Below, one piece after another: positions 1,182-61,115 of a stretch of DNA of 64,000 nucleotides (positions are counted from its first letter, which is position 1; each line of letters begins with the position of its first letter). Made by a program: the position numbers and the translations under genes. The notes below the pieces were generated by a model. That model was not told the DNA's origin. It saw only the letters and a program-made list of their open reading frames with translations, and did not search any database. Origin of the DNA: Mytilus galloprovincialis (lineage: Eukaryota; Mollusca; Bivalvia; Mytilida; Mytilidae); the NCBI RefSeq assembly GCF_965363235.1, contig NC_134844.1, forward strand, positions 56,230,872 through 56,294,871, given 5' to 3'.

Positions 1182-1204
1182 AAAAAAAAAAAAAAAAAAA
1201 AAAA
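1182..1204 (+). repeat. poly-A run
   Basis: A run of 23 A residues. It could be the tail of an old retroposed sequence, but no target duplication or body was recognised upstream. Confidence 0.8.
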
Positions 1205-1939: not shown

Positions 1940-2370
1940 CGTACGGTTGCCAATAGATATAAGAATATGTGGTATAAGTGCAAAAGAGACAAATCTCCAT
2001 CAAAGTCACAATTTGTAAACGTAAACCATTATAGGTCAAAGTGCGGTGGTGTGATTTCGAGCCTTTTTTTTTATAGCTGACGGTGCGGTAGGGGCTTTGC
2101 TTATTGTTGATGGTCGTACCGTATGACTTAAAGACGTTAATTTCTGTGTCATTTGGTCTGTTGTGGATATTTGTCTCATTGGCAATCATACCACATCTTT
2201 TTATATTCAACACTGAGCCTTGGCTGACACCGATCGGTAAGCTATAAAGGGTCCCAAAAATGACTAGTGTAAAACCATTCAAATAGGAAAACCAACAATC
2301 TAAATTATTAAAAACAAACGAGAAACGAGAATCACGTATGGTCCACCTCAACAAACGAAAACTACTGACC
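1940..2370. repeat. dispersed mussel repeat, family B, two opposed fragments
   Basis: About 1,940-2,208 reads in reverse as the family that begins TGGTATGATTGCCAATGAGA and continues through ACGGTACG...TCAACAATAAGC. About 2,210-2,340 is a forward fragment with GAGCCTTGGCTGACACCGA and GCTATAAAGGGTCCC. The same words recur at 10,600, 11,455 and 20,310. A 189-residue minus-strand frame across this repeat is a by-product, not a gene. I recognise the family as very common in mussel DNA; its class is unknown to me. Confidence 0.75.
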
Positions 2371-3794
2371 AATAAAAATATTGTAACATCACAACATAGA
2401 AGACACACCATTAAATTGAAATAGCTTTAAGTTATCTCAATCAAAAAGACATATACACAAAAAACAATTAAGTGACCATACACTGAACGGATAAATTGAT
2501 CTATGACACAATGTAGCATGAAATCAATAAAGCAAGGGGGTTATGTGTAAAACAATATCAGAAAGACAACCATAACCTTGGACAAAATAACGCCAAATAA
2601 AATAACGTAAGTTTTCTTAAACGGTATTGATCGACAAAAGGAATGGAGAACGAAATAAGCGTTTATTTCTACTACATTTTGTACCTATACCAAGATAGAC
2701 CGTACTTCAAATAATATAGAGAGGACTTGTAAAATGGGCTTGACTTTAACCTGTTATTTGAAAAAATAAGATGTTATAGACATGGGCAGAAGTTCTAAAT
2801 AGTGTCGGACGAGGCTGCGTAATTATGCATCCCCGACAACAATAAGACCACCCCTTTTAGCATTGTATTTTCTATCTGATGGGAGAAGTCCAGGTGACCA
2901 CATTTTTATATTAGAATCAACCCTTGGAGTTTGACATTTTTCTTCTCGCAAAAAGTAGCGTAAATGAAACTCTCTTGATTTTATTTATTTTATAACCTTA
3001 TTTTTTTTTTACATATCTTTATTTTTTTTAAAACTGGTTATGTTGTGCTTTACCTCAGAGTGCTTTACTTGTCCATGTACTTTTTGTTGGAGATTTTTCA
3101 GATTATAGCACAAATTTCAAAGTTAACTTTTTTTCTCATCTGCTTTTAATATTTCAACTGAAATAGTGGATCCTACGGTTTGGTTTTATCACTGCACAAA
3201 TAGTACTTTCTTTTTCCTTTTTAAAAGGCTATAACTTAGGTTTAAATATGTATGAAGATAGCTATGAATGTCGCCCGTAAAACAACCACATACACACCCT
3301 TCTCACCATCGACTGTCGGGTCAACATTCAAACTGTGATCATACGTAGGCGTCTCGGTGTGTCCTACAATTTAAAGCAAAAGACATAAAAGAGAACCTGA
3401 GCACAGCAACACTAGAAAAACCACAAATGACCATTTGTACTCGATAAACTGTTAATGGTTACGACCTATAGCGTAAGTAACTATCTTATAATTTATAGCA
3501 TAGTATACGTGCTCGTCGTAGTAAAATCTATACCCATTGATAGTCTAAATGTCATGGTCATTAAGGTCATATTTGTGGTCACTAGGTTTATAATTTGAAA
3601 TTACCGATTTAAATAAATAAAACAAGAGGTATATAACCAATTGACTATATCAGAACGATAAATCTGCTTTAACGCAAAAAATATAATTTCGCACTAAATA
3701 AGTTAAAAAGACGTGATGTCCACTTTTGCCTTGTCATAGAGGTGTGAGTGTCTTTTAAATTATTTGTATTTTGTTTCTTCTTTGTTATTTTCTA
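2371..3794. other. non-coding, nothing recognised
   Basis: AT-rich intergenic sequence with T-rich tracts near 3,000-3,030 and no supported gene or clear repeat family. Confidence 0.4.
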
Positions 3795-11690: not shown

Positions 11691-12989
11691 CATCTTCGCT
11701 AGCCAAGGGTTACGATCCACTCCCGCTCTGTGGCCCTTTGAAACAGAACATTGCTTGAAAATATCAGTTTGCCAAACTATTTTTCTGCAAATTAGAGCTA
11801 TTTGGTTTATAGTCATGTCACAAGAAGTCACAGATGGAGAATGAGTTTCGTTCCGGTAGACGGACTTTGCTGATCATATCGCCCTTGGAATAGGAAAAAA
11901 ATAACAATAATAAAAAATCAGTGTTCCACACTTTTTTCTTTAAAGTACGAAACAATTGATTTTGATATTTGGTATATGGATATATCACCAGAAATTAATG
12001 ATTGATTCATATATGTGTAAAAGCATACATGAAAAGTAACCATAACAGAGAGAATGCTTACTATAAAAGAGACGTTCAAACCTGCGACATAAGTTTCGGA
12101 TGCGTTATATTTGAGTGTATGAAAAGACAGGATATGGCTTCATTTTCTTTTTTTTTTTTTAAATTGATACTGTCATTTTCTCTATTCTATATAACATTTT
12201 TCCTATTATATTCTATTCTGTATATTAAAACACCCAATTGTTCTGTGTTCTTTATTTTTTGTACATTTTGTTCTTATTTTTTTTATTACATGTTCAATTT
12301 AAAAATTGGTAATCATTTACCATGCCAGAAATAATTAACACGAAAGAAAAAATTACAAATTCGGTATACGTGGGTAATACAATAGAATGTTTTTGCCGAT
12401 GCAGATGAATTTGGTATTTAGAGTTTCTTTTACCATGTTTACTACTCCTGTACTCGCCACAGATGCATTTTTCAGGATAAATATTGTATCATATTTTTGT
12501 AGCCGGTTTCGTTTGTAAAGATATGTCCAGGCAGATTACAGAATCGAGAATTGTAAAAATTGTGTGATTTCCCATTTTGCCCCTGTTTTAGTTGTTTAAA
12601 GTGATATTAAGCATAAGAATATTCATTGTGCAAATTTATTATTGAAAAGAAATACTAATGTTCATATAGTTAGACACCTACATATATTTCTTCATCTTAT
12701 ATATTATAAATCATGTTCATTTTTTTTAAGGCAGGACCAGAACCACAAAATCGTTGTACAAAAATCATCTGTATTATAAATTCAAATTTCGTCTATCATT
12801 CACTAAGTATTTTTATTTATTCATCAAACAAAGCGGCATAACTCAGATCTATAATAGTAAAATTCGTATGTGTTTCTTCTGCTGGAATTTTGTTTTCTTT
12901 GTTACAGGCAACCAATAGAAAAAATAAACAAAAATTAAAATTCGATACCTTTATGATAACAAAAAATTGTGAAATAGAGAAAATGATAA
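11691..12989. other. non-coding; left edge of an old gene-unit copy
   Basis: No gene. From about 12,770 to 12,985 the sequence (AACAAAGCGGCATAACTCAG onward) is a diverged match to 23,945-24,125 upstream of TRIM-like gene 2. This indicates that the TRIM gene unit was present here as an older third copy. Confidence 0.45.
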
Positions 12990-13461
12990 AGGAAGTACAC
13001 CACTAATTCATGGTCCCATTGCTTTCTATGTTAAATTCCTCCGTTTCAAGTAGGCACACCTCTTTTGTTTTAAGTTCAAATAAAGTGGCAATCATTGCAT
13101 TTCAAAGCAACCCTTTATGGTGTCTTGTACTGAAAAAATCAACATACCTTTAATTGCATATAAGAAAGAACTGGTTCCCGAAACTTTGGATGTACCAAAA
13201 CAGGTACTTCAGATCTGACAAACAGACAAAATGTACCCTCTTTTTAAAATTTGGTGCATTTTTTTTAATATTCAAAATCAAAAGTCCAAAAGTGTTTTAC
13301 AATGATCACCAGTCCTTCAGCTTTCATTTGATACCAAAAATACCTAAATATTCTACATATTTTGAAAGTTACACTCATGCGTAGGAACTATTTTGTGTTA
13401 AATATGTACTACTTTCTGGTATGTGCTTTCTGGCCGGGCCTGAATTAGTGGTGTTACACCT
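12990..13461 (+). mobile_element. 472-bp inverted-repeat element, family E, copy 1
   Basis: Left end AGGAAGTACACCACTAATTC; right end, read in reverse, AGGTGTAACACCACTAATTC. The element is flanked by ATAA on both sides, a possible 4-bp target duplication. A 76-residue frame inside is identical in both full copies but has no recognisable domain. It is a non-autonomous DNA transposon (MITE-like). The sequence is identical by eye to the copy at 14,333. Confidence 0.75.
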
Positions 13462-14332
13462 ATAACAGAACCAAACTTGCTATATTGACTTGAGCATTAC
13501 TTTATTTCATTCTATGATCTATTTCAAGCAATAAAAAACATATAAAGCTTTAGCTCAAATACTATTTTACTAATTTTAAGCTCAAATTGGACTGGTAGTA
13601 ACATATGGGTTATTCAAAGAAAACTGCATATGGGTATTACCAATGGCCAATATACTTTTTTTAATCTCAATACCATTGTTTTATTTATTAATTTCTATTA
13701 GGAAAGCTATGTGCTTACCAATAGTCATATTTTAATCAGAGGTTCTTCATCAAATAAAAATATATTAGTCTAAACTTAAGACATGAATGAGAAAATTGTC
13801 CCCCCTTTTTTCTTTAAATTGGAAAAGGGCTTTTTTTTGTATAAACCATAATTCTGTGGTAAAACATACATTATTAAGAGCAATTTATATATCTCTCAGC
13901 TAGATAACTTGCTAAACTGGTTCAAAATTGCATGTACAGTGAGCTTTTAGAATTCTTATATTAGTGTATACCATTTGCATAGATTGTAAAAGGCTACCAT
14001 ATGAAACACAAAAAACTTGAAAAATCATAAGATTATTTTGACCAAGAGCTATTTTATACCATATACAAGTCATAAAATACATGTTTTATTGATTTCAATC
14101 ACAAAAAATGCAAAAATAAGAACTTGGAGTCAAGTCTTAACTGCATGCATGTTATATGACCATAAAAGGCTAAAATACTTGTGTATGCCAATTCAAGAGC
14201 TTAAATTTCCCATAAACAGGATGTTTCACCAAAAAAAGATGATTAAACATGATTACTAACATCAAATTTGACTTATTTTCATTGGAATAGGTACAACTTC
14301 TAAAAATTGGATTTCTGATGATTCTCTGTAAT
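13462..14332. other. spacer between two identical elements
   Basis: 871 bp of AT-rich sequence with no recognised gene. It has no primer-binding site or polypurine tract at its edges, so the flanking direct repeats do not look like LTRs. Confidence 0.5.
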
Positions 14333-14804
14333 AGGAAGTACACCACTAATTCATGGTCCCATTGCTTTCTATGTTAAATTCCTCCGTTTCAAGTAGGCAC
14401 ACCTCTTTTGTTTTAAGTTCAAATAAAGTGGCAATCATTGCATTTCAAAGCAACCCTTTATGGTGTCTTGTACTGAAAAAATCAACATACCTTTAATTGC
14501 ATATAAGAAAGAACTGGTTCCCGAAACTTTGGATGTACCAAAACAGGTACTTCAGATCTGACAAACAGACAAAATGTACCCTCTTTTTAAAATTTGGTGC
14601 ATTTTTTTTAATATTCAAAATCAAAAGTCCAAAAGTGTTTTACAATGATCACCAGTCCTTCAGCTTTCATTTGATACCAAAAATACCTAAATATTCTACA
14701 TATTTTGAAAGTTACACTCATGCGTAGGAACTATTTTGTGTTAAATATGTACTACTTTCTGGTATGTGCTTTCTGGCCGGGCCTGAATTAGTGGTGTTAC
14801 ACCT
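14333..14804 (+). mobile_element. 472-bp inverted-repeat element, family E, copy 2
   Basis: Same length, orientation and, by eye, the same sequence as 12,990-13,461, including an eight-T run. Flanks (GTAAT left, AAAGT right) show no clear target duplication, which favours local duplication or gene conversion over independent insertion. Confidence 0.75.
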
Positions 14805-14945
14805 AAAGTTGCTAAAGTTGTTATATGTCTTTAATGCTTTAATGATATTTATTAATAACATTTTGATTTTCGCATAAGAATACAAAACAAATGATGTTAA
14901 AGGCCGTTTTAGCACTTACGAGACATCGTGTGTCTTACAGAAAAC

Positions 14946-17043: not shown

Positions 17044-17362
17044 AAACCCACCTAGTATTGTATTCATTTAATAAGTTTTCCCAGACAGTTAAATGTATCT
17101 AAACTCAATAACTTCGACAAAGGGATTATCACGTTGACTCCACCATTTTATTTTGTTTTTCGTAGCAGTGTTTTTAATTCAAAGTTTTACGTAAGAGCTT
17201 GATAATCCATACACACAGAGTTTGTAACTCAATCTTAAATTGCAACTTCACTTTTTCTGCAGATGACACAATCTTTGTTTGTAAAAAAAATATCGTTTAG
17301 AAAATAGTAAGTGTTATAAATATAAATTTTCAGATGGTCTTATTTTTCTTGTAGAACTATCG

Positions 17363-18469
17363 ATGGCAGCTAAATATTGCGAACCTTGCACTGCACGTGG
17401 TAAGACCCTAAAAGCTTTCCAATGGTGTACCGAATGTGAAGAAGCGCTGTGTTCCGAATGTACAGAAGCTCACAAAGTTCAAAAAATGTCTCGAAGTCAC
17501 CATTTGGTTGACATGGGTAAAATACCGAACAAAATTAATTTATCGTATAATTGTTCAAAACATCAACATTTGCCTTTTGATTATTTTTGTGTTGATCATG
17601 ATGTTATTTGTTGTAAGGAATGTTTGCCAAAAGATCATCGAGCATGTAAGAACGTCACATCAATTGATATAGCCTCAAAGAGTTCTAAGCAATCACAGTC
17701 ATTCCTGGATTATGACGAACAGTTGAGCTTTATTTCAGAAGCATTAGAAAAATTGAAAAAAAATCGGAAGGAAAATAGTAGTCGAGTAGAACAAGAAGAG
17801 ACACAAATTCGGAAACAAATAGCGAGAACAAAAGAAAATATCATCAAACAAATAGAATCTTTAGAAGAGCTGCTTCTTAAACAAATAACCGAACTCAAAG
17901 ACAAAAATATAACTGGTATAAAACGACAAGAGAAAGAAATAGGTGAATTAGTAACATCAACAAAAGACCAAAAGGAAGCTTTAGAATTAATTAGAGATCA
18001 TGGTTCTGAGAAACAAGCATTTATTACAATTCATTCTTCCAAACCAATCTTAGATGACATTGAAAACAAAGTTAAACAGCTGACAGAATCGTTTGTAGAT
18101 ACCAGCCTTATGTTTGTCGAAAGGGTATCAAAAGACTATTTAACGAGTATTGGGTCAATAAAATTGAAGGAAACGCCTTGTTCAGTTTCAATGGTCCCTT
18201 ACAAGCAGCTGCAGTCACAGGTGCCAGTTGTTTCGAAGGGGAAAATTACCTCCGTAACCTATCTAAACGACATCGACACGAAAGGAGAAAGGTTGAAGAC
18301 AGTATCTGGCATGACGATATCGGACAATAACAAATTGATTTTCTGTGATATAAATACGAGCAAGATTTATTTTTTTGATGAAAACCTTCCTATCATCTAT
18401 CAGCTCTCCACATCCACCGTGGGATATAGCAGCTATACCTGGAACATCCATTGCTGTTATGTCTTGTAG
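17363..18469 (+). CDS. TRIM-like gene 1, truncated by a frameshift
   Basis: 368 residues; start chosen because an acceptor (TTTCTTGTAG) ends 8 bp upstream, as in its two paralogues. There is no RING finger. B-box 1 uses Cys6, Cys9, Cys22, Cys25, Cys30, Cys33, His37 and His46. B-box 2 covers about 64-95 (CSKH, FCVDH, CCKEC, DH). Residues about 120-215 form a coiled coil. The NHL-like propeller begins near 290 but is cut. Compared with genes 2 and 3 the DNA is 5 bp shorter at about 18,378-18,390, so the last 26 or so residues are out of frame and the protein stops at 18,469. The remaining propeller frame stays open downstream. A B-box/coiled-coil protein without its ligand-binding propeller could still be made and could act on its paralogues (inference). 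Family members are usually cytoplasmic recognition or scaffold proteins; many are linked to innate immunity. Confidence 0.8.
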   Translation: MAAKYCEPCTARGKTLKAFQWCTECEEALCSECTEAHKVQKMSRSHHLVDMGKIPNKINLSYNCSKHQHLPFDYFCVDHDVICCKECLPKDHRACKNVTSIDIASKSSKQSQSFLDYDEQLSFISEALEKLKKNRKENSSRVEQEETQIRKQIARTKENIIKQIESLEELLLKQITELKDKNITGIKRQEKEIGELVTSTKDQKEALELIRDHGSEKQAFITIHSSKPILDDIENKVKQLTESFVDTSLMFVERVSKDYLTSIGSIKLKETPCSVSMVPYKQLQSQVPVVSKGKITSVTYLNDIDTKGERLKTVSGMTISDNNKLIFCDINTSKIYFFDENLPIIYQLSTSTVGYSSYTWNIHCCYVL

Positions 18470-28480: not shown

Positions 28481-29713
28481 TATCCTCTCCTAAGATGAGG
28501 CAGTGGTGTAACAGCACAACATAAGAACAAACTATAAACATCAGTTGGCATTGGCTCATCTTAAAATGTATGTTTGAGGCACAAAACCAAGTAGAATAAA
28601 AACACTAGCACAGAGCACCGCATAAACAGTTCCTTTTACTAAAGGATTGTACAAAGCCAATACCCACTATCAATAAATTAAGTTCTCCCGGACTAAACTA
28701 TCAAGCAATACCAATCCGTGGATTAAGTATGAAGACGTTTAAATCATTCTAAGAAACGCCTGACCTAGTGCCACTATTCGGTGTGTGCCAAGGCACTGTG
28801 ATGAAGGCTGTACTTAAATTTGAAAACTGAAAAAAAACTGTGACTTGCATTAAGAGTTGTTTAATTGACACATTTACCACATCTCCTTATTCATTTGTAC
28901 TCCAATTAATCAATCCCCGTTATTGGTGTGAACGGCTTATTTTCTTTTCCTTATCGCAAGCTGTGTGAATTGTCGGCTTTTTATATTAAAATAAACCGAT
29001 TTTGCATGATCCATTTTGAAACAAAAATTTACAAGTTGGCAAAGAACATAGATGTCATTAACTAAATGTCACCCTACACCCTTCAACAATGAAAAACACG
29101 TATCGTATAGAAATTGATAAACTGTCAAATAAAACAGCCATTTAAATGTGAAAGCTATAAAAAAGGAAAAACAATGAACTCATTTATATTCAAACATCAA
29201 CGGAAAACAAATAAAGCAGACCTCTATCAATTGAACCACATAATCAATATTTGTCATATAATGAAACCAAATTTGTTTTCCAAACAATTCTATCATCTCT
29301 ATTTCACAGACAAACTGTAGTTAAACAAGTTCGTGTCCCATAAAATACCGCATAGTATCATGAAAATTTAATAAATTTGAACACTCTGTGCTTTCAGACA
29401 GCTGAATTCGTCTCAACTCAACCACGGTGTGGGATTATCACGATGTTCAATTGCATCATCAAAGCACATTAAAGGCAATTTGGTCATATCGTCTCAAATC
29501 CCTATCAACACATTCAATAGAGCAGAAAAGTTCCATACGAATAAAGAAAATCTTTATGTGTAAAATTTTGTATCCACTTCTTTGAAATTCAGTTGAAAAA
29601 GTAACCATAGTATGGTCATTTTATATGAAGATGACACACTATTTTTTTTAAGATAAAGCTTTTAAGAAGTTAAAAGTCACAATAGCACATTTTTAAAATT
29701 ATTTTTATTTTAG
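28481..29713 (+). other. rest of the intron of TRIM-like gene 2
   Basis: No exon recognised. About 29,045-29,175 is a decayed family B fragment (CCCTTCAACAATGAAAAACA); the counterpart in unit B is 42,600-42,690. It ends with the T-rich acceptor TTTTTATTTTAG at 29,713. Confidence 0.5.
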
Positions 29714-29717
29714 AAAT

Positions 29718-31358
29718 ATGACAGCCAAATATTGCGAACCGTGCACTGCACGTGGTAAGACTCCAACAACCTTTCAGTGGTGTACCGAATGTGAAGAGGC
29801 ACTGTGTTCCGAATGTACAGAAGTTCACAAAGTTAAAAAAATGTCTCGAAGTCACCATTTGGTTGAGATAGGTAAAATACCGAACAAAATTAATTTATCG
29901 TATAATTGTTCAAAACATCAACATTTGCCTTTTGATTATTTTTGTGTTGATCATGATGTTATTTGTTGTAAGGAATGTTTGCCAAAAGATCATCGAGCAT
30001 GCAAGAACGTCACATCAATTGATATTGCGTCAAAGAATTCTAAACAGTCACAGTCATTCCTGGACTATAACGAACAGTTGAGCTTTCTTTCAGATGCATT
30101 AGAAAAATTGAAAAAAAATCGGAAGGAAAAAAGTAGTCGAATAGAACTAGAAGAAAGTAAAATAAAGAAAGAAATAACGAAAGCAAAAGAAAATGTCATC
30201 AAACGTTTGGAATCTTTAGAAAAGTCGCTTCTTACACAACTAACTGAATTGAAGGACAAAGATATGATTGGTATACAACGACAAGAGAAAGATATAGGTG
30301 AATTGGTAACAACAACAAAAGCCCTTAAGGAAGCTTTAGAATTTATAAGAGATCATGGTTCTGAGAAACAAGCATTTATTTCAATTCATTCATCTAAATC
30401 AATCTTAGGTGACATTGAAAACAAGGTTAAACAACTGAAAGAATCGTTTGTAGACATCAGTCTAATGTTCGTCGAAAGTTTATCAAAAGACAATTTAACG
30501 GATCTTGGATCAATAGAGTTAAAGGAAACGCCTTGCTCCGTTTTAATGGTTCCGTACAAGCAGCGGCAATCTCAAGTTCCAGTCGTTTCGAAGCGCCATA
30601 TTACTTCTTTTACACATCTCTACGATATCGATATGAAAGAAAAGTTGAGTGTAGTAACTGGTATCACAGTATCGGACAATAACACATTGATTATATGCGA
30701 TGTTGGTACCGACAAAGTTTATTTTTGTGATAAGAATGATGCATACCTATCATCTATCAGCTCTCCACATAAACCTTGGGATATAGCAGCGATACCAGGA
30801 ACAACCACAGCTGTAATGTCTTGTAAATGGAAACCGTACATACAGTTGATCGATATAGATAGACAGCAAATATTAAAGCAGTTAAAAATAAAACAAGGTG
30901 GATGTTTGGGTGTTGCTGCAACAAAAGAAAACATATATATCGGAACTAAAGGGAAAATATGTGTCCTAGACCTACGTGGAAATTTTGTTAGAACAATACA
31001 TTTGAAAAACATAGATCACCACGTTAATTACATTTCCGTTTGCTCAAATGGAAACATCTGTTATTCAACTAACAATGAAGTCCAATGCATTACGACAGAT
31101 GGAAAACCTGTTTTCTCTTATACTTCTCCCGATCTTCGGGATGCACGAGATATTCAAATTGATGATGCCAGTAACATCTATGTCCTTGGACAGGATTCAC
31201 AAAACATTCATAAACTCACGTCTTCTGGAATCGTAGAAGACATTTTATTAAAACATAATTTGTCCGAACCTCTTGCATTCTGTTTCAGTAAGGATCTTGC
31301 TAAATGTTACATTGCAAATGACAGTGGATCAAAAGTATCCGTATTCAAGACTGGGTAA
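29718..31358 (+). CDS. TRIM-like gene 2 (two B-boxes, coiled coil, NHL-like propeller)
   Basis: An intact 546-residue protein; the ATG follows an acceptor by 4 bp. B-box 1: Cys6, Cys9, Cys22, Cys25, Cys30, Cys33, His37, His46. B-box 2: Cys64, His67, Cys76, His79, Cys84, Cys87, His92. A coiled coil of charged heptads spans about 120-215. Residues about 305-546 give six propeller blades, each with a 'sNNTLIICD', 'KENIYIGTK' or 'SNGNICYST' type strand pair. There is no RING, so no E3 ligase activity is predicted by itself. Family members work by oligomerising through the coiled coil and binding RNA or protein with the propeller; a role in innate defence is common in bivalves but is inference here. 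It is the unit A paralogue of gene 3, about 84 percent identical in protein by my count. Its B-box 2 DNA is nearly identical to gene 1, suggesting gene conversion. Confidence 0.9.
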   Translation: MTAKYCEPCTARGKTPTTFQWCTECEEALCSECTEVHKVKKMSRSHHLVEIGKIPNKINLSYNCSKHQHLPFDYFCVDHDVICCKECLPKDHRACKNVTSIDIASKNSKQSQSFLDYNEQLSFLSDALEKLKKNRKEKSSRIELEESKIKKEITKAKENVIKRLESLEKSLLTQLTELKDKDMIGIQRQEKDIGELVTTTKALKEALEFIRDHGSEKQAFISIHSSKSILGDIENKVKQLKESFVDISLMFVESLSKDNLTDLGSIELKETPCSVLMVPYKQRQSQVPVVSKRHITSFTHLYDIDMKEKLSVVTGITVSDNNTLIICDVGTDKVYFCDKNDAYLSSISSPHKPWDIAAIPGTTTAVMSCKWKPYIQLIDIDRQQILKQLKIKQGGCLGVAATKENIYIGTKGKICVLDLRGNFVRTIHLKNIDHHVNYISVCSNGNICYSTNNEVQCITTDGKPVFSYTSPDLRDARDIQIDDASNIYVLGQDSQNIHKLTSSGIVEDILLKHNLSEPLAFCFSKDLAKCYIANDSGSKVSVFKTG

Positions 31359-33930: not shown

Positions 33931-34024
33931 ATGAACCGAGTCAAATACTTAATTGAAATATTTGTAATTTTAAATTTAATTAAGGAAATCTTCAATCGTT
34001 ACAAATAGTAAACATATTGATATA

Positions 34025-34060
34025 TCGATGGGTTAATGCAACAATCTCGTATCTAGAAAG
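34025..34060 (+). repeat. left terminal inverted repeat of the 4.2-kb element
   Basis: Pairs with 38,190-38,224; the core GGGTTAATGCA is identical in both. Confidence 0.8.
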
Positions 34061-35170
34061 TTGTGACTTTTAAGAAACCGACATACAAAGTTTGACTGTA
34101 AATGTAAATTCTATTTTACTACAGAAATGTACCAAATTAACATAGATTGCAAAAATAGACACAGTTACTATCCTTTTATAATTTGATGCTAATTGGTTGT
34201 CAGATAAAAGATATAATTGCACTTGAAATGTTTAACGGATATAGGTATTCCATAATGATTAAAATGTAATGCAGATGTTTGTGTCACAAGGTCATTACTA
34301 GTGATAACATATTTACGCCTGTGTGGTATATCATATTCTAAATGTTGTTTAATAAGCATCATTGCATTTGCAAGCAATAAGAGATTGTGGAATTTGAAAA
34401 ACGAATAAATATAACTAATTTTTTTTTATTTGTTTTGAATGATATACTGTGATAAATGCAAAATAACACTTGATATAATTAAACGTTGTTAAGTGAAAGA
34501 AAACAATACATAAGGTGATGTATTTACAGGGAAAACTATACACAAAGTAATCACGGAATGTGAATTTTAAAATATATATTATTATTCACGAACAAAATTT
34601 AAATTGTTATTTTTTACCAATTATTTCCCAATCATTCTGTTTTTTGGTTGTTTTAAAAAATTACATTGTTTTAAAGAATTTATGGTAATGGATGATCTTT
34701 ATTATATTTATAAGAAATACTATTATTTTCTAAAACACATGATGAAATTAAATACACATAAAAAATTATTAATATATTGTGTGGAGTAGTTTTCACTGAA
34801 TTTTAAAGAAGAAAAGACAAAAGTTCCAATAGAAAAAGATTGGATGTTGTTAATAAAACAAAATAAAGTAATTCTAAAATTGAAATAATAATAGAGGAAT
34901 AACGACTTATTTAAACTTTCCCTTAAGAATATTCCTTTTCTTTCAAAATTAAAAACTTTCTTATGTTTCCTTCGACATTTGTGGCAATTAGACTTTAAAA
35001 AAAACAATGTACTTGATTACAAGAAAATATAACACAGCAAAAATCAATGAATTTCCTAAGACTACGTGAATTCACTATTTCAGTTTATGTTATATATTAT
35101 AACTGATAAACCAAGATTGTTATATTGTTTTTGCTTTGAAGACAACTGATGCAGTTTTCAGTCTTAATCA

Positions 35171-35416
35171 TTATTCTTTTTCGGAGTCAATTTCATCTTC
35201 CTCAAAATCCGGATCTGGAAGTATATCTGGTGTTTTGCTGTCAGATTGTAATCCTTTGTAGAAACGACGGTACTCGCTTGGAATAACACCAGTTTTACAA
35301 AGATTCAGTAAATCTTTCTTTTTAGCAGCAGATACTGTCTGTCTAGCTGTATATCTCTTAGGTATCTCCATTAAATTTACGGGACGACCTTTTCTAGTCT
35401 TTTCTGTAACTCTCAT
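35171..35416 (-). pseudogene. last part of the transposase-like tail, out of frame
   Basis: 81 residues: TEKTRKGRPVNL, then a basic stretch and LLNLCKTGVIPSEYRRFYKGL, then an acidic end DPDFEEDEIDSEKE. The 'LC...IP..Y..FY..L' ending matches the C-terminus of the same invertebrate protein family as the preceding frame. It is separated from it by 62 bp in which a third frame also looks coding (DPDHISFKHKF). The region therefore has at least two frame changes, either real decay or sequencing error. Confidence 0.6.
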
Positions 35417-35478
35417 TTTATGGAATATCCAAATTCATGAATTTATGTTTAAAGGATATATGATCTGGATCCTTCTTT

Positions 35479-36981
35479 TCAAATTTCAACCATCTCATTT
35501 TCAGCCATTTGATTTTTTTTCCCATTGATGTCTTCTTTTCTGTACCGAAAAATCTGTTTTTGGAGTCCTTTGAAATCGTATATATTTTCAAATGTGAGCG
35601 GAACTATCAAATATGGATCATTCCTCCTGGCCATGCGGATTACTGTCGACCATTGCTGTGGAACATAAATCTCGGTCTTTTTTTTTTCAAATTCAATGGC
35701 AGAATGCATACTGTCACATTCCATCTGAGTGTGTCCACTTTCTAGGAATTTGTGGTCAATTGTTTCGATATTAGGAAGTGTTGTAACAGCATGCATTAGG
35801 CAAGTAGCGATGAACTGTTGGATAGTTGGTTCCGTATCAGGGTTTACAGTGACATCTTCCTGTTGGATAGTTGATTCCGAATCAGGTTTTACAGTGAAAT
35901 CTTCCTGTTGGATAGTTGATTCCGTATCAGGGTTTACAGTAAAATCAGTCTGTTGGATAGTTGATTCCGTATCAGGGTTTTCAGTGACATCAGCATGTTG
36001 AATTGTTGATTCCGTATCAGGGTTTACAGTGACATCAACCTGTTGGATAGTTGATTCCGTATTAGGGTTCACAGTGACATCAGCATGTTGAATTGTTGAT
36101 TCCGTATCAGGGTTTACAGTGACATCAGCCTGTTGGATAGTTGATTCCGTATCAGGGTTTTCTGTGACATCAGCCTGTTGGATGGTTGATTCCGTATCAG
36201 GGTTTTCAGTGACATCAGCCTGTTGGATAGTTGGTTCTGTATCAGGGTTTACAGTGACATCAGCCTGTTGGATAGTTGATTCCGTATCAGGGTTCACAGT
36301 GACATCAGCATGTTGAATTGTTGATTCCGTATAAGGGTTTACAGTGACATCAGCCTGTTGGATAGTTGATTCCGTATCAGGGTTCACAGTGACATCAGCA
36401 TGTTGAATTGTTGATTCCGTATCAGGGTTTTCAGTGACATCAGCCTGTTGGATAGTTGATTCCGTATCAGGGTTTTCAGTGACATCAGCCTGTTGGATAG
36501 TTGGTTCTGTATCAGGGTTTACAGTGACATCAGCCTGTTGGATAGTTGATTCCGTATCAAGATTTACAGTGACATCAGTATCAGGGTTTTCAGTGACATC
36601 AGCCTGTTGGATAGTTGATTCCGTATCAGGGTTTTCAGTGACATCCGCCTGTTGGATAGTTGATTCCGTATCAGGGTTTTCAGTGACATCAGCCTGTTGG
36701 ATAGTTGGTTCCGTATCAGTGTTTACAGTGACATCAGCCTGTTGGATAGTTGATTCCGTATCAAGGTTTACAGCGACATCAGCCTGTTGGATAGTTGATT
36801 CCGAATCAGGTTTTACAGTGACATCAGACTGTTCCGTATCAGTCTGTCCAGTTCTGTTAACACTACTAGTATTATCAATACTCACAGCTTCTACTTTTTG
36901 GTCACTACTTGTTTCATCAAGTTCAATTGCATTCAAAATTTCCTCCAAGTCATCATCTGAGGACCACTGTATGTCTGCCAT
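35479..36981 (-). CDS. chimeric protein: acidic start, 15-residue repeats, transposase-like tail
   Basis: A 500-residue minus frame. Residues 1-51 are acidic (WSSDDDLEEILNAIELDE). Residues 52-389 are about 22 copies of a 15-residue unit, ADVTVNPDTESTIQQ with V/E, S/P and Q/H variants. Residues 390-490 are unlike the rest: HKFLESGHTQMECDSMHSAI near 410-430, VPQQWSTVIRMARRNDPY and YDFKGLQKQ. I recall the GHT-D-H-IE signature as the last acidic part of an RNase H-like (DDE-type) transposase family of invertebrates, whose earlier part (an SDNC-GQN motif) is absent here. The minisatellite sits where that part should be. A splice acceptor (TCTGTTGTAG) ends about 12 bp before the ATG, so an upstream exon is possible. 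The frame runs off its family alignment at an eight-A run near 35,512. Expression and function are unknown. Confidence 0.65.
   Translation of the reverse strand: MADIQWSSDDDLEEILNAIELDETSSDQKVEAVSIDNTSSVNRTGQTDTEQSDVTVKPDSESTIQQADVAVNLDTESTIQQADVTVNTDTEPTIQQADVTENPDTESTIQQADVTENPDTESTIQQADVTENPDTDVTVNLDTESTIQQADVTVNPDTEPTIQQADVTENPDTESTIQQADVTENPDTESTIQHADVTVNPDTESTIQQADVTVNPYTESTIQHADVTVNPDTESTIQQADVTVNPDTEPTIQQADVTENPDTESTIQQADVTENPDTESTIQQADVTVNPDTESTIQHADVTVNPNTESTIQQVDVTVNPDTESTIQHADVTENPDTESTIQQTDFTVNPDTESTIQQEDFTVKPDSESTIQQEDVTVNPDTEPTIQQFIATCLMHAVTTLPNIETIDHKFLESGHTQMECDSMHSAIEFEKKKTEIYVPQQWSTVIRMARRNDPYLIVPLTFENIYDFKGLQKQIFRYRKEDINGKKNQMAENEMVEI
35815..36828 (-). repeat. coding minisatellite, 45-bp unit, about 22.5 copies
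   Basis: The 45-bp unit (CTGTTGGATAGTTGATTCCG... on the plus strand) repeats through 1,014 bp, keeping the frame without stops. One unit is shortened in the middle (near 36,570-36,595) by a multiple of three. Variants recur in blocks of about six units (270 bp), indicating higher-order duplication. The antisense frames are also long and open, but only as a consequence of the repeat. Confidence 0.9.
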
Positions 36982-38189
36982 ATTTTGTATATCTACAACA
37001 GATACGAAATATCATTCAGATATTTTCATTCAAACATTTTCCCTATAAAACATCATCTAGTATTATTAGATTAATTATTAATTATTACATATTTTTTTTT
37101 ATTTATATGAGATAAGCGCGTACAAGTGTTTTGTATTCGAAATGCTTAAAAATAAAAAGTAAATAGATATATATTTTCTTACATACTGATTCAGCCTATT
37201 TATCTCTGAAAAAAAACTATGCTACGATTAATTTTTGCATTTAAAAAAAAATATACTTAATTTGTATGTTACATTAAAAAATTAATTCATTTTTCAATGT
37301 TATACTTTTTCCGTATTAACTTACCAAATGAAACCTTTAGGTATACATTTTAATTCCTTTTTCTTTTTCTCTTGTCTCAAATAATATAGATGCTACTGCA
37401 AAAAAAAAAACAAAAAAACATGCGCTTATTGATACTAATGAAATTAAGGAAGATACAAACATATTAAATTTAATATCTTTTTAAATATTTTTCTCTTAGG
37501 AAACAGGTATAATGAAAATAAATTGTACCGTAAATATGTTTTGTAATAATATAAATTTTAATTAAAAACGTATATCAAAATGTAAAAGTTAAGTATATAA
37601 TGGAATTAAAAATTAATTAATTATTTCAATAATATGCATTATTTTTTAACAAAATATACAAACCTTTTTTCTAATTTGCAGTTTTTTTGCTGAATATCAA
37701 AATTCCGTGTCAAAACCCGTCATCAGTCAAAACAATTACTTGGTTTAATCTCAGTTGATGTTTATATTATCTAATATGAGGTCATGCCAGTAACACTTAG
37801 TTGACCTTGCTTGTTTGATAACCTGCTGATAGGTGTTGAAATAAATAAATCAAAATGTCAATTGCAATATGAAGATAGTACTTGTTACAGTGTTGAGGCA
37901 TATGCATTTTCAAACATTTGTTTGTTTATAGGAATGCGACACACCTCATCGTTAGATATTTTGTTGGGGCGCTTGGTGCAAGCTATTTAATTATAAGAAT
38001 AAATCGTTCATTCTAATAGTAATACGAGATAAGTCCTTCATGTTGGCAAACTTTCGTTATCAAACTTATAATAGATTGATGAACATGTCAATTAAAAATT
38101 TATTTTATAACCAATTGCTCTAAAAAATTTAGGGAATATTATTTAATACTTTAGTGCTAAAAAAATCAATAAATCTCAAAACTGCAAAA
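36982..38189. other. AT-rich part of the 4.2-kb element
   Basis: Upstream of the minus-strand gene. Very AT-rich, with no recognisable exon; promoter not identifiable. Confidence 0.4.
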
Positions 38190-38224
38190 TTTTCAGTTAC
38201 GTGGTTGATGCATTAACCCCTCGA
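38190..38224 (-). repeat. right terminal inverted repeat of the 4.2-kb element
   Basis: GATGCATTAACCCCTCGA at the right edge; see the left repeat at 34,025. Confidence 0.8.
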
Positions 38225-39654
38225 ATTATTGTTACGAAAATAATGGAGTACCTGTATCATTAAAATCCCATCTTTTTATCAACAATATAAAGAAAAAGAA
38301 ATATTCATTTGACCAAGTAGGTCGAATTTTTCGAATTGTTCGAACCTGATACAGACGATTCGAACACCTTACATCCCTCAATTTGAGAATCGACTAAGCT
38401 CTCCATCAGAATATTTATTATATCTAATCATTAATTATCCATCAAGGTATTCATATTAAAAAAATATATTTACATTATGCTTTAAATAATGAAGGTCAGT
38501 CGCAATTGGTTATATCTCCAGTTCTGTAATCATTTTCGTAAATATCCTTTGACAATTGCAAAAATCTTTAACTAACGATACCAGGAATATCCTTAACAAG
38601 TTTACAATTTTAAGTGGACAAACCCAAGTAAAAAATGAACACCTCAAAGAAACATCAATACAAATACTACATGCTTGCTGGTCCTCGTATACCATATCGC
38701 ATATCAAAATCACATCATGCAGAAATGCACCTTATGTGATCTTCTCCTTGTTAGAGTTTTTGCTGCTATCCAAAATCATTCGCGATTGTTTGCGATTTTC
38801 TGTTTTTTTTTAAAAAAATAAATCAACCCAGGGTTGGAGCACACTCGGCTAGCTGTCTTCCATTAACGGATCATTTTTAAAAATGATCAATGTATTCAAT
38901 AAGAAGTTATTTCAAAGTTAAAATGCTGAAAGGAAATCCCCAATGGAACGTTGCACATGCACAAAATTTAATTACATGAACGTACATATTCATATACACG
39001 AAGCACTTAAAGCATGGTGTAGATTGAATATTAAAAGCAATGTTTAACTAAATAAAATCTATAAACGGTTGGCACTGCTTTAAATTGGTGTCTCCTCCTC
39101 AACATTCTTGAAAATTGAATAAAAGATCAACATAGCACCTAATACGAGAAAACCAGAGACCTCTTTATGTCAGAAAACACTATCAAACATCCAAACATAC
39201 TATCCACACTGATCTGTGTCCACACTTGTTACCTGTAAAAACAATAAAGAAATTGTGATTATTTGTAATTAAGGCTGCATTTACTGATAATCTTTTATCG
39301 AACGAGGGCACAGTACTTATGTACTTTTATAATACTGATAATGAAACATCTATATCAGTCCTTTATGTATATTGAATAACCGACATGATTAAAGGTAAGG
39401 TTTATTTGTCAGAACAGCTACTTTTTAAAGTCATATAAGCATTTAATGTTCAAAATGTATAGTAAAAATATATCGTAATAATAAGGGAATATTTCCTTTT
39501 TACCCGTTCCCGTCAAGGCCTATTCAGCTTTGGTTATCCAAGGGAGAATGTTTTTACTCTGAAACGAGCAGTCTTTGCTCTCATATCTACGTGTCGCTTG
39601 TTAAGCAAACAGACAGCACATATCAATTTTTAAGCCTTTTGTTTTATCTGACAG
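38225..39654. other. unit A intergenic sequence
   Basis: Matches 47,488-48,940 with about 95 percent identity by eye. No gene; the 85- and 66-residue frames in the two copies are not conserved. Unit B has 48 extra bp near 48,383-48,430, bounded by AGA on both sides. Confidence 0.5.
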
Positions 39655-42000: not shown

Positions 42001-43421
42001 AAAAATCAGTTGCAATTGGCTCATCTTAAAATACAAAACAAAATAAAATAAAAACAATAGGCACAGAGCACCGCGAAACGAGTACCTGTTACTGTAGGTT
42101 TGTTTAAAAACCCAGATCCCACTAATACATAAATTATGTTCTTCCAGACTAAACTATCAATCCTCGGATTTAGCGCAAAGACGACATCAACAGCCTGAGA
42201 AACGCCTGACCGTGTTCCATTATTCGGTGTGCCTAGGCTCCGCGGTGAAGGCCAATTTGACTCTTTCTTGTTTACTTTTTACAAATTGTGACTTTGAAGG
42301 AGCTAGTGTAGTCTAATTGACATACATACCATATCTTCTTATTTATATTTACTCTCATTTATCAATGTAAGTCGGTTGTAAAGCAAACAACAATCAATAA
42401 ATCAATCAATCCCTGTTATTGGTCTGAACGGCTAAGGTTCTCCTCCATATCGCTATCTTTGTGTGTAGTCGACGTTTATATGAAAACAATTTACAATTTA
42501 GCGAAGGACAAATATGGCAATAAGCAATAAATGGAAGTTTTCAATGGCCTTGACTGGCTATACAGCCCTTGCACGGTCAGAGACTATGTCAATAAGTAAA
42601 GGTTACCGTACATCATTCAACAATGCAAACCACGTATCGTATAGTAAACTATAAAATGAAACCGCCATATAAATGTGAAGGCTACCAATGGAATAATATT
42701 TGCTTCAACAAGAACAAAAAACAAATAAATCATACATCAATTTTGAGGGCCTCAGGGAAGATTAGTTTATTGTAACTAACTGAGTTTACCCTCTTTAAAT
42801 AAATTAGTATTAATCAAAAGTAACCAAGTAATCGATGATTCTTATAATTAAACCATGTTTGTTTTCCTAATGATTTCATGATATCTATTGCATTAATAGA
42901 CTATAGTTTAAACAAGTCTGTGCCCTGAAAAATACTGCCTCGTATTATTTAACTTTAATAAATTTAAACACTCTGCGATGTTAAAGAGCTCAATTTATCT
43001 CAACGTTTACACCACGGTGGTTCAATTGCATCAATCTATTCTTTGTAGTTTTTAATTTTTACCCATGACCGAACTCGCAAGTAGTAATACAACTTTGACT
43101 TAAAAAGCGAAACTGGTTTAAGTGGGGTTTATCCATGAAGAGTTTATACGAATATGTACAAATGCACATTACAGGCAATTTGGTCCTGTCATATCATTAA
43201 GGACATAGGAATTAATGACAAACGTATTAGAATCCCAATCAACACAGTCAATAGAGAATAAAAGACCAATATGAAGAAAGAAAATCTTTTATATTAAAAT
43301 TCTGTATACATTTCTGTGTAATTCAATTTTAATTTTGACACGCTCATTGTTAAAGATAGAGTCCTTTTAGAAGTAAAAATAAAATAATGTCTTTTGTTAT
43401 GAATTAATATTTTTATTTTAG
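42001..43421 (+). other. rest of the intron of TRIM-like gene 3
   Basis: Includes a decayed family B fragment at 42,600-42,690 (TTACCGTACATCATTCAACA) and ends at the acceptor TTTTATTTTAG. No exon recognised. Confidence 0.5.
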
Positions 43422-43425
43422 AACT

Positions 43426-45066
43426 ATGGCAGCCAAATATTGCGAACCGTGCACTGCACGTGGTAAGACTCCAACAGCATTACAATGGTGTACCGAATGT
43501 GAAGAAGCCCTTTGTTCCGAATGTACAGAAGTCCACAAGGTTCAAAAATTTTCTCGATGTCACCATTTGGTTGAGATAAGTAAAATATCGAGCAAAATTC
43601 CTCTATTGCAAAGTTGTTCAAAACATCAACATTTGCCGTTTGATTATTTTTGTGTTAATCATGATGTTATTTGTTGTAAAGAATGTTTACCAAACGATCA
43701 TCGAGCATGCAAGAACGTCACACCAATTGATATAGCATCAAAGAGTTCTAAGCAATCACAGTCATTCCTTGATTATGAAGAACAGTTGAGCTTTCTTTTA
43801 GAAGCATTAGAAAAATTAAAAAACAATCGGAAGGAAAATAGTAGTCGAATAGAACTAGAAGAATCTAAAATTCGGAAAGAAATAGCGAAAGCAAAAGAGA
43901 ATGTCATCAAACGCCTGGAATCTTTAGAAAAATCACTTCTGAAACAACTAACCGAATGGAAGGACAAAGATATGACTGCTATAAAACGACAGGAGAAAGA
44001 AATAGGTGAATTGGTAACATTAACAAAAGCCCGAAAGGAAGCTTTAGAATTCATAAGAGATCATGGTTCTGAGAAACAAGCATTTATCTCAATTCGTTCA
44101 TCTAAACCAATCTTAGATGACATTGAAATCAACGTGAAACAGCTGAGAGAATCGGTGGTAGACACCAGCCTAAGGTTTTTGCAAAATCACTCGAAAGAAT
44201 ATTTAACGGATATCGGTTCAATAGAATTAAAGGAAACGCCTTGCTCCATTTCAATGATTCCATACAAGCAGCGGCAATCTCAAGTTCCAGTCGTTTCGAA
44301 GCGCCATATTACTTCCTTCACACATCTCTACGATATCAATATGAAAGAAAAGTTTAGTGTAGTAACTGGTATCACAGTATCGGACAATAACACATTGATT
44401 ATATGCGATGCTGGTAACAAAAAAGTTTATTTTTGTGATAAGAATGATGCATATCTATCATCTTTCAGCTTTCCACATCCACCATGGGATATAACAGTTA
44501 TACCAGGAACAACTACAGCTGTTATGTCTTGTAAATGGACACCGTACATACAGTTGATCGATATAGATAGACAGCAAATATTAAAAAAGGTAGAAATAAA
44601 ACAAGGTGGAGGTTGGGGTGTTGCTGCTACAAAAGAGAACATATACATCGGAACCAAAGGGAAAATATATGTCCTAGACTTACACGGCAATTTCGTTAGA
44701 ACAATACATTTGAAAAACGTAGATCATTACATTATTTACATTTCCGTTTGCTCAAATGGAAACATCTGTTATTCAACCGACAATGAAGTCCAATGCATTA
44801 CGTCAGTTGGAGAACCTCTTTTCTTTTATACTTCCCCCGATCTTTCTGATGCACGATCTATTCAAATTGATGATGCCGGCAACATTTATGTCATTGGACA
44901 GAATTCACAAAGTATTCATAAACTGACGTGTTCTGGAACCTTATTACACATCTTTTTGAAAGATAATTTGTCCCAACCTCTTGCATTCTGTTTCAGTAAG
45001 GATCTTGCTAAATGTTACATTGCAAATGACGGTGGATCAAAAGTCTCCGTATTTAAGACTGAGTAA
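43426..45066 (+). CDS. TRIM-like gene 3 (two B-boxes, coiled coil, NHL-like propeller)
   Basis: An intact 546-residue paralogue of gene 2 with the same domain positions and all zinc-binding Cys and His residues kept; ATG 4 bp after the acceptor. Changes cluster in the linker between the B-boxes (residues 45-63: CHHLVEISKISSKIPLLQS), in the coiled coil, and across the propeller faces. I count roughly 88 amino-acid differences from gene 2, far more than the surrounding non-coding DNA would predict. Like gene 2 it lacks a RING finger and would act as an adaptor or recognition protein. Polyadenylation may use CATAAA at 45,116-45,121. Confidence 0.9.
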   Translation: MAAKYCEPCTARGKTPTALQWCTECEEALCSECTEVHKVQKFSRCHHLVEISKISSKIPLLQSCSKHQHLPFDYFCVNHDVICCKECLPNDHRACKNVTPIDIASKSSKQSQSFLDYEEQLSFLLEALEKLKNNRKENSSRIELEESKIRKEIAKAKENVIKRLESLEKSLLKQLTEWKDKDMTAIKRQEKEIGELVTLTKARKEALEFIRDHGSEKQAFISIRSSKPILDDIEINVKQLRESVVDTSLRFLQNHSKEYLTDIGSIELKETPCSISMIPYKQRQSQVPVVSKRHITSFTHLYDINMKEKFSVVTGITVSDNNTLIICDAGNKKVYFCDKNDAYLSSFSFPHPPWDITVIPGTTTAVMSCKWTPYIQLIDIDRQQILKKVEIKQGGGWGVAATKENIYIGTKGKIYVLDLHGNFVRTIHLKNVDHYIIYISVCSNGNICYSTDNEVQCITSVGEPLFFYTSPDLSDARSIQIDDAGNIYVIGQNSQSIHKLTCSGTLLHIFLKDNLSQPLAFCFSKDLAKCYIANDGGSKVSVFKTE

Positions 45067-47400: not shown

Positions 47401-48939
47401 CGAGTTAAATACTTAATTGAAATATTTGTAATTTCAAATTTAATTAAGGAAATCTTCAATCGTTACAAATAGTAAACATATTGATATATTGTTACGAAAC
47501 TAATGGAGTACCTGTATCATTAAAATCCCATCTTTATATCAACAATATAGAGAAAAAGAAATATTCATTTGACCAAGTAGGTCGAATTTTTCGAATTGTT
47601 CGAACCTGATGCAGACGATTCGAACACCTTACATCCCTCAATTTGAGAATCGACTAAGCTCTCCATTAGGATATTTATTACATCTAATCATTAATTATCC
47701 ATCGGGGCATTCATATTAAAAAAATATATTAACACCATGCTTCAAATAATGAAGGTCAGTCGCAATTGGTTTTATCTCCAGTTCTGTAATAATTTTCGTA
47801 AATATCCTTTGACAATTGCAAAAATCTTTAACTAACGATACCAGGAATATCCTTAACAAGTTTACAATTTTAAGTGGACAAACCCAAGTAAAAAATGAAC
47901 ACCTCAAAGAAACATCAATAGAACCATACAAATACTACATGCTTGCAGGTATACCATATCTCATATCAAAATCACATCATGCAGAAATGCACCTATGTGA
48001 TCTTCTCCTTATTTGAGTTTTTGCTGCTATCCAAAATGATTCGCGATTGTTTGCGATTTTCTGTTTTTTTTAAAAATAAATTACCACAGGGTTGAGCACA
48101 CTCGGCTAGCTGTCTTCCATTAACGGTTCATTTTCAAAAATGATCAATGTATTCAATAAGAAGTTATTCCAAAGTTGAAATGCTGAAAGGAAATCCCCAA
48201 TGGAACGTTGCACATGCACAAAATTTAATTACATGAACGTACATATTTATATACACGAAGCACTTAAAGCATGTTGTAGATTGAATATTAAAAGCAATGT
48301 TTCACTAAATAAAATCTATAAACGGTTGGCACTGCTTTAAATTAGTGTCTCCTCCTCAACATTCTTGAAAATTGAATAAAAGACATGCTATTTTAGTGTT
48401 TGGTACAGATTTGCTGTCACTGTGCGACACAGATCAACATAGCACCTAATATGAGCAAACCAGAGACCTCTTTATGTCAGAAAACACTATCAAACATCCA
48501 AACATACTATCCACACTGATCTGTGTCCACACTTGTTACCTGTAAAAACAATAAAGAAATTAAGGCTGCATTTACTGATAACCCTTTATCGAACGAGGAC
48601 ACAGTACTTATTTACTTTTATAATACTGATAATGAAACATCTATATCAGTCCTTTATGTAAATTGAATAACCGACAAGATCAAAGGTAAGGTTTATTTGT
48701 CAGAATAGCTACTTTTTAAAGTCATATAAGCATTTAATGTTCAAAATGTATAGTAAAAATATATCGTAATAATAAGGGAATATTTCCTTTTTACCCGTTC
48801 CCGTCAAGGCCTATTCAGCTTTGTTTATCCAAGAGAGAATGTTTTTACTCTGAGACGAGCAGTCTTTGCTCTCATATCTTTATTTCGCTTGTTAAGCAAA
48901 CAGACAGCACATATCAATTTTTAAGCCTTTTGTTTTATC
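47401..48939. other. unit B intergenic sequence with the empty site of the 4.2-kb element
   Basis: GATATATTGTTACGAAAC at 47,483-47,500 is the uninterrupted site. The rest matches 38,225-39,650. No gene. Confidence 0.7.
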
Positions 48940-58559: not shown

Positions 58560-61115
58560 TTTTTTTTAACCATATTTCATTAACAATCACCTGTTACATG
58601 AACCCTCAGTTGCCCAGGGAAGCAACTAAGGGGACCCCAATTTTTACAGTCTCATTTGTCGGGGAAAAAAGCAAATGAGAAAAAACTCCCTCTATAAATT
58701 ATTAACATCAACCTTTATAAATATATTATATCCTTGTACAAATGTACATGTTAATATCAGTGAAAATACACCTACTTCATATAATTGTAGTACCTCCGAA
58801 TATATTTATGGACCCATTTCTCATGTTATAACAGGAGATCTTAACATCGTTCAAGACCGAGAGTTAAAATCATTCCTCAGTAAAGGACCTAAATATCGTC
58901 CCCCGTCAATTATTAATTGGAATGAGTGTCGTAATATCATCCACAACTCACTCCATACTTACTGTATGAAATGGATAAAACGGGAAAAAGCTGACAAAAA
59001 ATCTTTGGACTCTTTTTTTAATTCAGTAATGAAGATAGTTGATATACGTATTCAACATTTTAAAGAACATTTTACTATTAACAATAACCACAATAAACCT
59101 ATTTCTCGTATCAAACATAAACTAAAAGAACTAGCCAATAAATTTGTTTTTGTCCCGGCCGATAAAGCTGCTTATAATGTTATTATTGTTTGACGTAAAT
59201 TTTACATTGAGGTTCTGAAAAAAGAAATCACCAATTCACCAACATTCCAACTGATTCCATTTTCAGAAAACGAAATCTGTAACAAACATAAACTTTTAGC
59301 TACCGCTTTACAAGCAGAGCCAAATACAATGAAAGTCCCAACTATGTATTGGCTTCCGAAGCTACACAAAACACCTTACAAATATAGATTTATTTCGTCT
59401 TCGTCTTCGTCTTCAAGCCATTGTTCCACTACTAAATTGTCTATTCTTCTTACCAGCACACTTGGTACAATTAAAAACCTGATAATAAATTGTTCAAATA
59501 AGGCCTTCGAAAATAGTGGAATTAATTACTTCTGGAGTGTCAAGAACTCGTTGGAAGTACTAGATAAATTGCATGCTTATATTGGTGATTTTGAATCTGT
59601 TCAAAGTTTTGATTTTTCTACCCTGTATACCACATTGCCTCACATTCTCATTAAGAAAAAATTCACACACCTAATTAAATGGGCATTTAAAAAATCAGAA
59701 TGTGAATAAATATGTTCAAACTCTTTCAGGTCATTTTGTAGTAGCAATAAACAAAAAAACTATGTCAATTGGACATGCGTTGATACTATATATGCCCTTG
59801 AATTTTTACTAGATAACATTTTTGTTCGCTTTGGGGATTCCGAATATCGTCAGATTATCGGAATTCCTATGGGGACTAACTGTGCACCACTTATTGCGGA
59901 CCTGTTTTGTATTGCTATGAGTTACAATTTATGACAAAAATAAGCAAAGACCCATCGAAACAACATCTGATAAACAAATTTAATAATACTTTTAGATATT
60001 TGGATGATATTTTGGCTCTCAATAATGACGCCTTCAGTATGTATATTAAAGAAATTTATCCTGTTGAACTTACTTTGAATAAAGCTAATACTAACAATGA
60101 CCACTGCCCTTTCCTCGATCTTGATATCTATATCACTAACGGAAAGCTGAATACTAAAATTTATGATAAAAGAGATGATTTTTCATTTCCTATCGTTAAT
60201 TATCCATTTTTAGAAGGTGACGTTCCCTTGTCACCATCTTACGGTGTTTATATATCTCAACTTGTACGATTCGCTCGTGTATGTAACAATGTTTTAGATT
60301 TTAACGAGAGAAATTTATGTATTACTGAAAAATTATTACACCAGGGTTTTCGATATCACAAACTAGTCAAAAAATTTACGAAATTGCAGACTTCTTATAC
60401 GTTCAGGTATTTCACATCCAATTTTTTATGGAAATATTCTTTATAAAGCACAAAGATGTCAGTATCTACCTCAAAAACTAACAAAACCTTTGAATAGACT
60501 TATTAAGAAGGGATATAGTTACGATACTGTTGTCAGGTCATTAAAGATTGCATATTTTGGCGTTAATATTGATTCATTTATAGGGTCTTTGCATCGGAAC
60601 TAAACACATTTATTATTTAACCAGTTGTTGGCATGACACGGGTTATGTTCTTCTCATATATTTTATGATGGTATGATACTAAACCCCTAACGGGAAGGAT
60701 TGTGCCTGATGTTCATATGATGAAATCATAATCTTTCAGTCAGTTTAATTGAAGTCTGGAGCTGGCATGTCAGTTAACTGCTAGTAGTCTGTTGTTATTT
60801 ATGTATTATTGTCATTTTGTTTATTTTCTTTGGTTACATCTTCTGACATCAGACTCGGACTTCTCTTGAACTGAATTTTAATGTGCGTATTGTTATGCGT
60901 TTACTTTTCTACATTGGCTAGAGGTATAGGGGGAGGGTTGAGATCTCACAAACATGTTAACCCCGCCGCATTTTTGCGCCTGTCCCAAGTCAGGAGCCTC
61001 TGGCCTTTGTTAGTCTTGTATTATTTTAATTTTAGTTTCTTATGTACAATTCGGAAATTAGTATGGCGTTCATTATCACTGAACTAGTATATATTTGTTT
61101 AGGGGCCAGCTGATT
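58560..61115 (+). mobile_element. broken Penelope-like reverse-transcriptase element
   Basis: Plus-strand reverse-transcriptase-related segments in order: a N-terminal part with FVFVPADKAA (58,675-59,193), a part with YWLPKLHKTP and FSTLYTTLP (59,329-59,709), and a part with FRYLDDIL, CPFLDLDIYI, TKIYDKRDDFSFPIVNYPF and YGVYISQLVRFARVCN (59,907-60,446). The PKLHK, SLYTTLP, YLDD order fits Penelope-like elements; I see no GIY-YIG endonuclease. A tail from 60,450 to about 61,115 includes family G sequence (TTAACCCCGCCGCATTTTTG). The element is broken in several places and looks moderately old. Confidence 0.7.

Follow-up and report, generated by a model that had tools for sequence, protein, structure and literature searches.

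A 64,000-nucleotide stretch of Mytilus galloprovincialis DNA (assembly GCF_965363235.1, contig NC_134844.1, forward-strand positions 56,230,872 to 56,294,871; hereafter the window), located on contig C7 of the 1.38-Gb genome, carries a 4198-bp DNA transposon within unit A, one of the members of a tandem gene array. With considerable confidence we interpret this transposon as a non-autonomous cut-and-paste copy that inserted into unit A after the split between A and its sister duplicate B, with a 4-bp duplication of the target ATAT, and that was derived from a 7.4-kb element encoding a putative transposase with an acidic start, tandem repeats, an OTU-like region and a DUF7869 region. The features of the copy and of its empty site are as follows (window positions):

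34026..38223, 4198 bp, coding strand minus: non-autonomous transposon copy, its ends set by comparison of 11 two-ended copies and of the 4-bp duplications around them
34022..34025: left target-site duplication ATAT; at this place the empty units B, L049 and L050 have an uninterrupted ATATAT
38224..38227: right target-site duplication, imperfect (AATT for ATAT), from flank comparison
34026..34056, plus strand: left terminal inverted repeat, pairing over 15 bp with a single mismatch and imperfectly beyond
38193..38223, minus strand: right terminal inverted repeat, near-exact inverse of the left end
36834..36981, minus strand: start of the remnant reading frame, MADIQWSSDDD..., from translation
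35815..36833, minus strand: in-frame 45-bp tandem repeats (15-amino-acid units), ~22 copies, from repeat detection (17.0 + 5.7 copies) and translation
35815..35817: internal-deletion junction with 3-bp microhomology CTG, from comparison with the L029 form
35171..35814, minus strand: remnant C-terminal part, the rest of the DUF7869 region and the tail, over three frames, from translation and Pfam
47484..47487: empty target site ATAT in unit B, from alignment across the site

Genomic copies and target-site duplication

The left end of the element, which reads CGATGGGTTAATGCA from 34026, has a near-exact inverse that ends at 38223, and the two ends are identical at 24 of their first 31 bases. A genome search with the left end returned 18 places, 15 of them at no less than 90% identity (window included), and a search with the right end returned 16, some of which are pieces of one locus. 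Twenty loci were fetched; under a rule of at most 6 mismatches over 28 bases, 11 had both ends, 6 had one end and 3 had neither. Further copies, which the original prediction had proposed to seek with the element ends, therefore exist, and its description of an inverted-repeat transposon holds.

The flanking 4-mers were identical in 9 of the 11 two-ended copies, and no copy had identical flanks at 3, 5 or 6 bp. The target-site duplication is therefore 4 bp long, and the preferred target is ATAT, which was the left 4-mer in nine copies (otherwise AAAC or TATT). The alignment of copies and empty sites, also proposed at the outset, fixed the termini and this length. It replaced the 3-bp duplication (TAT) suggested from the window alone, and the extent first given as 34025-38224 was shortened by one base on each side.

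The duplication length could also be read against an unoccupied site. Two copies, L029 (C1:131473058-131480473) and L031 (C5:58433472-58436899), have the same flanks on different contigs, with the element in opposite orientations. Their common flank is a high-copy repeat, found at 40 places at 98–100% identity over nearly its full length (L029's own included; the best 40 of 1017 candidates), which rules out a single element inverted in place. An unoccupied copy of the repeat, L063, reads GTTGAATATTAATCC, while L031 reads GTTGAATAT, then the element, then ATATTAATCC; L029 departs from L063 at a single base immediately past the duplication. Comparison with the empty L063 thus indicates two independent insertions at one palindromic ATAT and fixes the 4-bp duplication.

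The end pattern CGANGGGTTAATGCA, allowing at most one mismatch, occurs 184 times genome-wide, compared with 52 times for the reversed pattern, and its frequency is above chance. Among its 21 zero-mismatch places, 18 are ends of copies also recovered by the similarity search and three lie outside known copies. Two of the fetched loci, L028 and L034, form a second group ∼10% from the window copy.

The full-length element and its deleted derivatives

The L029 element is 7415 bp long and has a single open frame of 1688 amino acids, which begins with MADIQWSSDDD and continues through tandem 15-amino-acid repeats and an OTU-like region to a C-terminal DUF7869 region. The 600-amino-acid C-terminal part is also free of stops at a second locus (C11:3029045, in L027) and contains two stops at a third (C5:73309267, in L033). 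The window copy fuses positions equivalent to ∼1783 and ∼4973 of L029 at a common CTG, so it lacks ∼3.2 kb of the L029 form, and with it both the OTU-like region and the first two of the conserved aspartates (see below). Because of this deletion, and because the C-terminal remnant is spread over three frames, it cannot make the whole protein; it is a non-autonomous, internally deleted derivative of the 7.4-kb element. Three other copies, L030, L031 and L032, have one internal deletion in common and are 0.5–1.9% apart, as expected for copies moved in trans. The transposase acting on such deleted copies was presumably the DUF7869 protein.

Empty sister units and the order of events

Unit B is continuous through the insertion site, as originally predicted, with the target ATAT at 47484-47487. 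The duplicated stretch has two further units, L049 (C7:73.45 Mb) and L050 (just past the window), which match the flanks on both sides and lack the element. The site reads ATATAT without a break in all three empty units, with L050 diverging more in the bases that follow. As B, L049 and L050 are all empty, the insertion is a derived state of unit A, and one gain accounts for all four units.

Sequence divergences also fit an insertion after the A/B duplication, although gene conversion between the two units could have skewed them. Over two 1.1-kb arms, the Kimura two-parameter (K2P) distance of the window copy is 1.7–1.9% to L031 and 2.0–2.4% to L030 and L032, while the divergence between the A and B flanks is 4.6% (2832 sites). 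The flank of L049 is 16% from both A and B, a figure that the gapped alignment may inflate; local BLAST identities for L049 range from 85 to 96%. The divergence table leaves out three arms, the right one of L036 and both of L037, whose values (as high as 0.52) probably reflect insertions and misalignment.

The opposite order, in which the duplicated units descended from one that already carried the element and B lost it by precise excision, is highly improbable. Precise excision occurs in some superfamilies, and the imperfect right duplicate of the window copy could fit an older insertion. However, with L049 and L050 also empty, this order would need several precise losses, each removing one duplicate, in place of one gain, and the copy is closer to L030, L031 and L032 than A is to B. 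We therefore rejected precise excision from unit B and retain an insertion younger than the duplication, which the original prediction had put forward as one of two options.

Relatives of the encoded protein

A search of the genome with the 600-amino-acid part of L029 gave 75 matches, with pieces of one gene counted separately. In an alignment of nine sequences, of which the other eight are 63 to 30% identical to L029, residues D303, D379, E420, D422 and E429 are among the positions invariant in all nine. Pfam matched DUF7869 (PF25273), a domain label without an assigned function, to the C-terminal region of every aligned sequence, with a borderline score for the window family. In a profile search of the genome, all 150 candidates scored (the best 150 of 300) matched DUF7869, and all those listed were above the cut-off; in control genomes the domain was found in 0 of 14. 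We read the DUF7869 region as the putative catalytic, RNase-H-like (DDE/D) part of the transposase.

The relatives also bear on the N-terminal half of the protein. The cysteine-protease domain OTU (PF02338) scored above the cut-off in L055, which is 44% identical to L029 (30.5 versus 23.3 bits), and L029, L051 and L055 group together in the midpoint-rooted tree with support 93/96; the program flagged a meeting of long branches in another part of that tree. L051 was assigned to the OTU group by unscored resemblance. The frame of the 63% relative, L052, is headed by a similar start, MSDYQWSSDEEW, and has its own N-terminal tandem array (L052:4196-6313, minus strand) with a different motif and units of ∼16 amino acids, compared with 15 in the window family. 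The N-terminal arrays appear to have arisen or turned over independently between families, with the acidic start conserved and the repeats seemingly unconstrained in length and sequence. In L053, an F-box/LRR frame (326-1084) sits immediately upstream of the DUF7869 frame (1072-3147), and the two overlap slightly.

Of the first 31 bases of the window left end, 24 are matched by an end of the 63% relative, 18 by the 44% relative and 21 by the 30% relative. As background, among the 63969 31-mers on the window plus strand, one reaches 20 matches (the end itself) and six reach 18 (the end included), so the likeness of the 44% relative's end is weak by itself. The motif TATCT, picked post hoc, occurs at about bases 25–29 of the window left end and of one end of each of the three relatives; it is absent from the window right end and from the other end of the 30% relative. 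The ends of this last relative begin CGTCGCTGTTATGCAAAAACCTCGTAT, its copies on C4 and C7 are 99.4% identical over 4678 aligned positions, and its duplications, assigned by eye, are ATAT/ATAT and ATAG/ATAG. Pattern scans of viral and genome contig collections for relatives gave 6, 15 and 31 matches, none of which was confirmed.

Several results weigh against the interpretation given at the outset. The duplication of the window copy is itself imperfect (ATAT on the left, AATT on the right), so that the 4-bp length is not visible from this copy alone, and that of L027 is imperfect as well (ATAT/ATGT). In L029, the OTU match (residues 814-949, E = 0.011) is below the Pfam cut-off, at 16.7 versus 23.3 bits, and the DUF7869 match (residues 1446-1560, E = 1.7e-5) is borderline, at 24.9 bits with a cut-off of 26; the C-terminal 600-amino-acid part taken separately scores 26.5 bits. 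DUF7869 reaches 15.4 bits in the window's own frame, and Pfam found no OTU match in L051, although that locus is placed with the OTU clade. Sequence searches of the PDB found no matching solved structure, so the RNase-H fold of the DUF7869 region stays putative. An NCBIfam search gave one match, far below its cut-off. Pfam matches in low-complexity repeats were disregarded (Extensin_1, Fn3_Dep-1, IML1_N and 2C_adapt in the window frame, Fn3_Dep-1 in L029, as well as PulA_N1 and NCE101, the latter just over the cut-off with no single stretch passing), as was a TraY match at E = 0.047.

Superfamily placement

The element appears to represent a new family of DNA transposons, which we compared with known superfamilies through their published descriptions. 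It probably belongs to the Sola superfamily, either within the group Sola2 or as a sister to it, a placement made from ends and duplications as described and not a filing as a member. The original prediction could place the ends in no named superfamily; they and the duplications fit those reported for Sola2, while formal membership is not assigned. Sola2 elements are reported to have 4-bp AT-rich duplications, including ATAT, and 12–21-bp terminal inverted repeats (PMC3627910), and they are reported from bivalves (PMC10294476). The window family is similar in its 4-bp AT-rich duplication (perfect in 9 of 11 copies, with ATAT as the left 4-mer in 9 of 11), and the window copy in its short inverted repeats (15 bp with 1 mismatch; 24 of 31 bases). 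It differs from Sola2 in that L029 has an OTU-like region and N-terminal tandem repeats, which the available portion of PMC3627910 does not mention, and in the length of the L029 frame, 1688 amino acids versus 888 for one Sola2 transposase described there. No family labelled Sola was among the domain-library matches, and nothing on Sola with ATAT was found in the limited collection of literature searched.

An unlikely but serious alternative is that the family belongs to an undescribed superfamily of DUF7869 transposases, which has 4-bp AT-rich duplications in common with Sola2 by coincidence. In the same limited collection, DUF7869 is not mentioned and an OTU domain is not described in Sola, Ginger being the only superfamily that surfaced, which would favour this alternative. 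It is opposed by the combination of a 4-bp ATAT duplication with short imperfect repeats, as reported for Sola2 (PMC3627910), and by the report of Sola2 in bivalves (PMC10294476). Placement in or beside Sola2 is thus our preferred reading. A broader proposal, that DUF7869 marks a large and separate transposase class with CG-starting ends, a TATCT motif close to one of them and AT-rich targets of 4 bp, and with lineages tied to the ubiquitin system (by an OTU fusion in one clade and by the upstream F-box/LRR frame of L053 in another), is more speculative still, and we consider it quite doubtful.

A Ginger1 element, which would combine 4-bp duplications with OTU or Ulp1 domains, can practically be dismissed. 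According to PMC2836005, Ginger1 has CCGG or CCGT targets, a TGTNR start, inverted repeats of ∼40–270 bp and a Gypsy-integrase-like transposase, and its OTU domain is C-terminal. The window family is like it in the 4-bp duplication and in an OTU-like protease within the transposase protein, but its duplications are ATAT, AAAC and TATT, its ends start with CG, its inverted repeats are ∼15–31 bp, and the OTU-like region of L029 lies upstream of the DUF7869 region. Pfam found no integrase family in L029 up to E = 1, so target, termini and transposase class all differ, and Ginger1 was rejected on duplication and domain features. Kolobok and piggyBac elements duplicate TTAA and are ruled out, as no TTAA was found among the 11 two-ended copies. 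PIF/Harbinger elements, which duplicate 3 bp (TNA, with ANT in one subgroup; PMC12477816), are ruled out because none of these copies had identical flanks at 3 bp.

Neighbourhood of the element

The window contains three similar TRIM-like frames in tandem (17285-18466, 29697-31355 and 43408-45063). The second has a B-box match just below the Pfam cut-off (23.1 versus 24.1 bits), and the other two resemble it; the transposon lies ∼2.7 kb downstream of this second frame. Elsewhere in the window, adjoining reading frames at 58630-60443 (plus strand) look like a broken reverse transcriptase, which we take to resemble those of Penelope-like elements; Pfam found no match in 59194-59706. A 477-bp direct repeat (12987-13462 and 14329-14805) has 99.8% identity between its copies, which are ∼0.9 kb apart.

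Proposed mechanism and significance

We propose that the DUF7869 transposase made by full copies would recognise the CG-starting inverted repeats, excise the element and insert it into ATAT-like targets opened by cuts with a 4-bp stagger. Intact and deleted copies would be moved alike by the same enzyme. The OTU-like region may act on ubiquitin, and it may keep the transposase, or the complex it forms, from being removed in a ubiquitin-dependent way.

Three empty sister units, together with an unoccupied copy of a repeat that was hit twice, fix the ends of the element, the length of its duplication and the order of events without recourse to an outgroup. The OTU–DUF7869 architecture offers a clue to what a Pfam domain without an assigned function may do, and it raises the question of why different kinds of transposons carry domains of the ubiquitin system.

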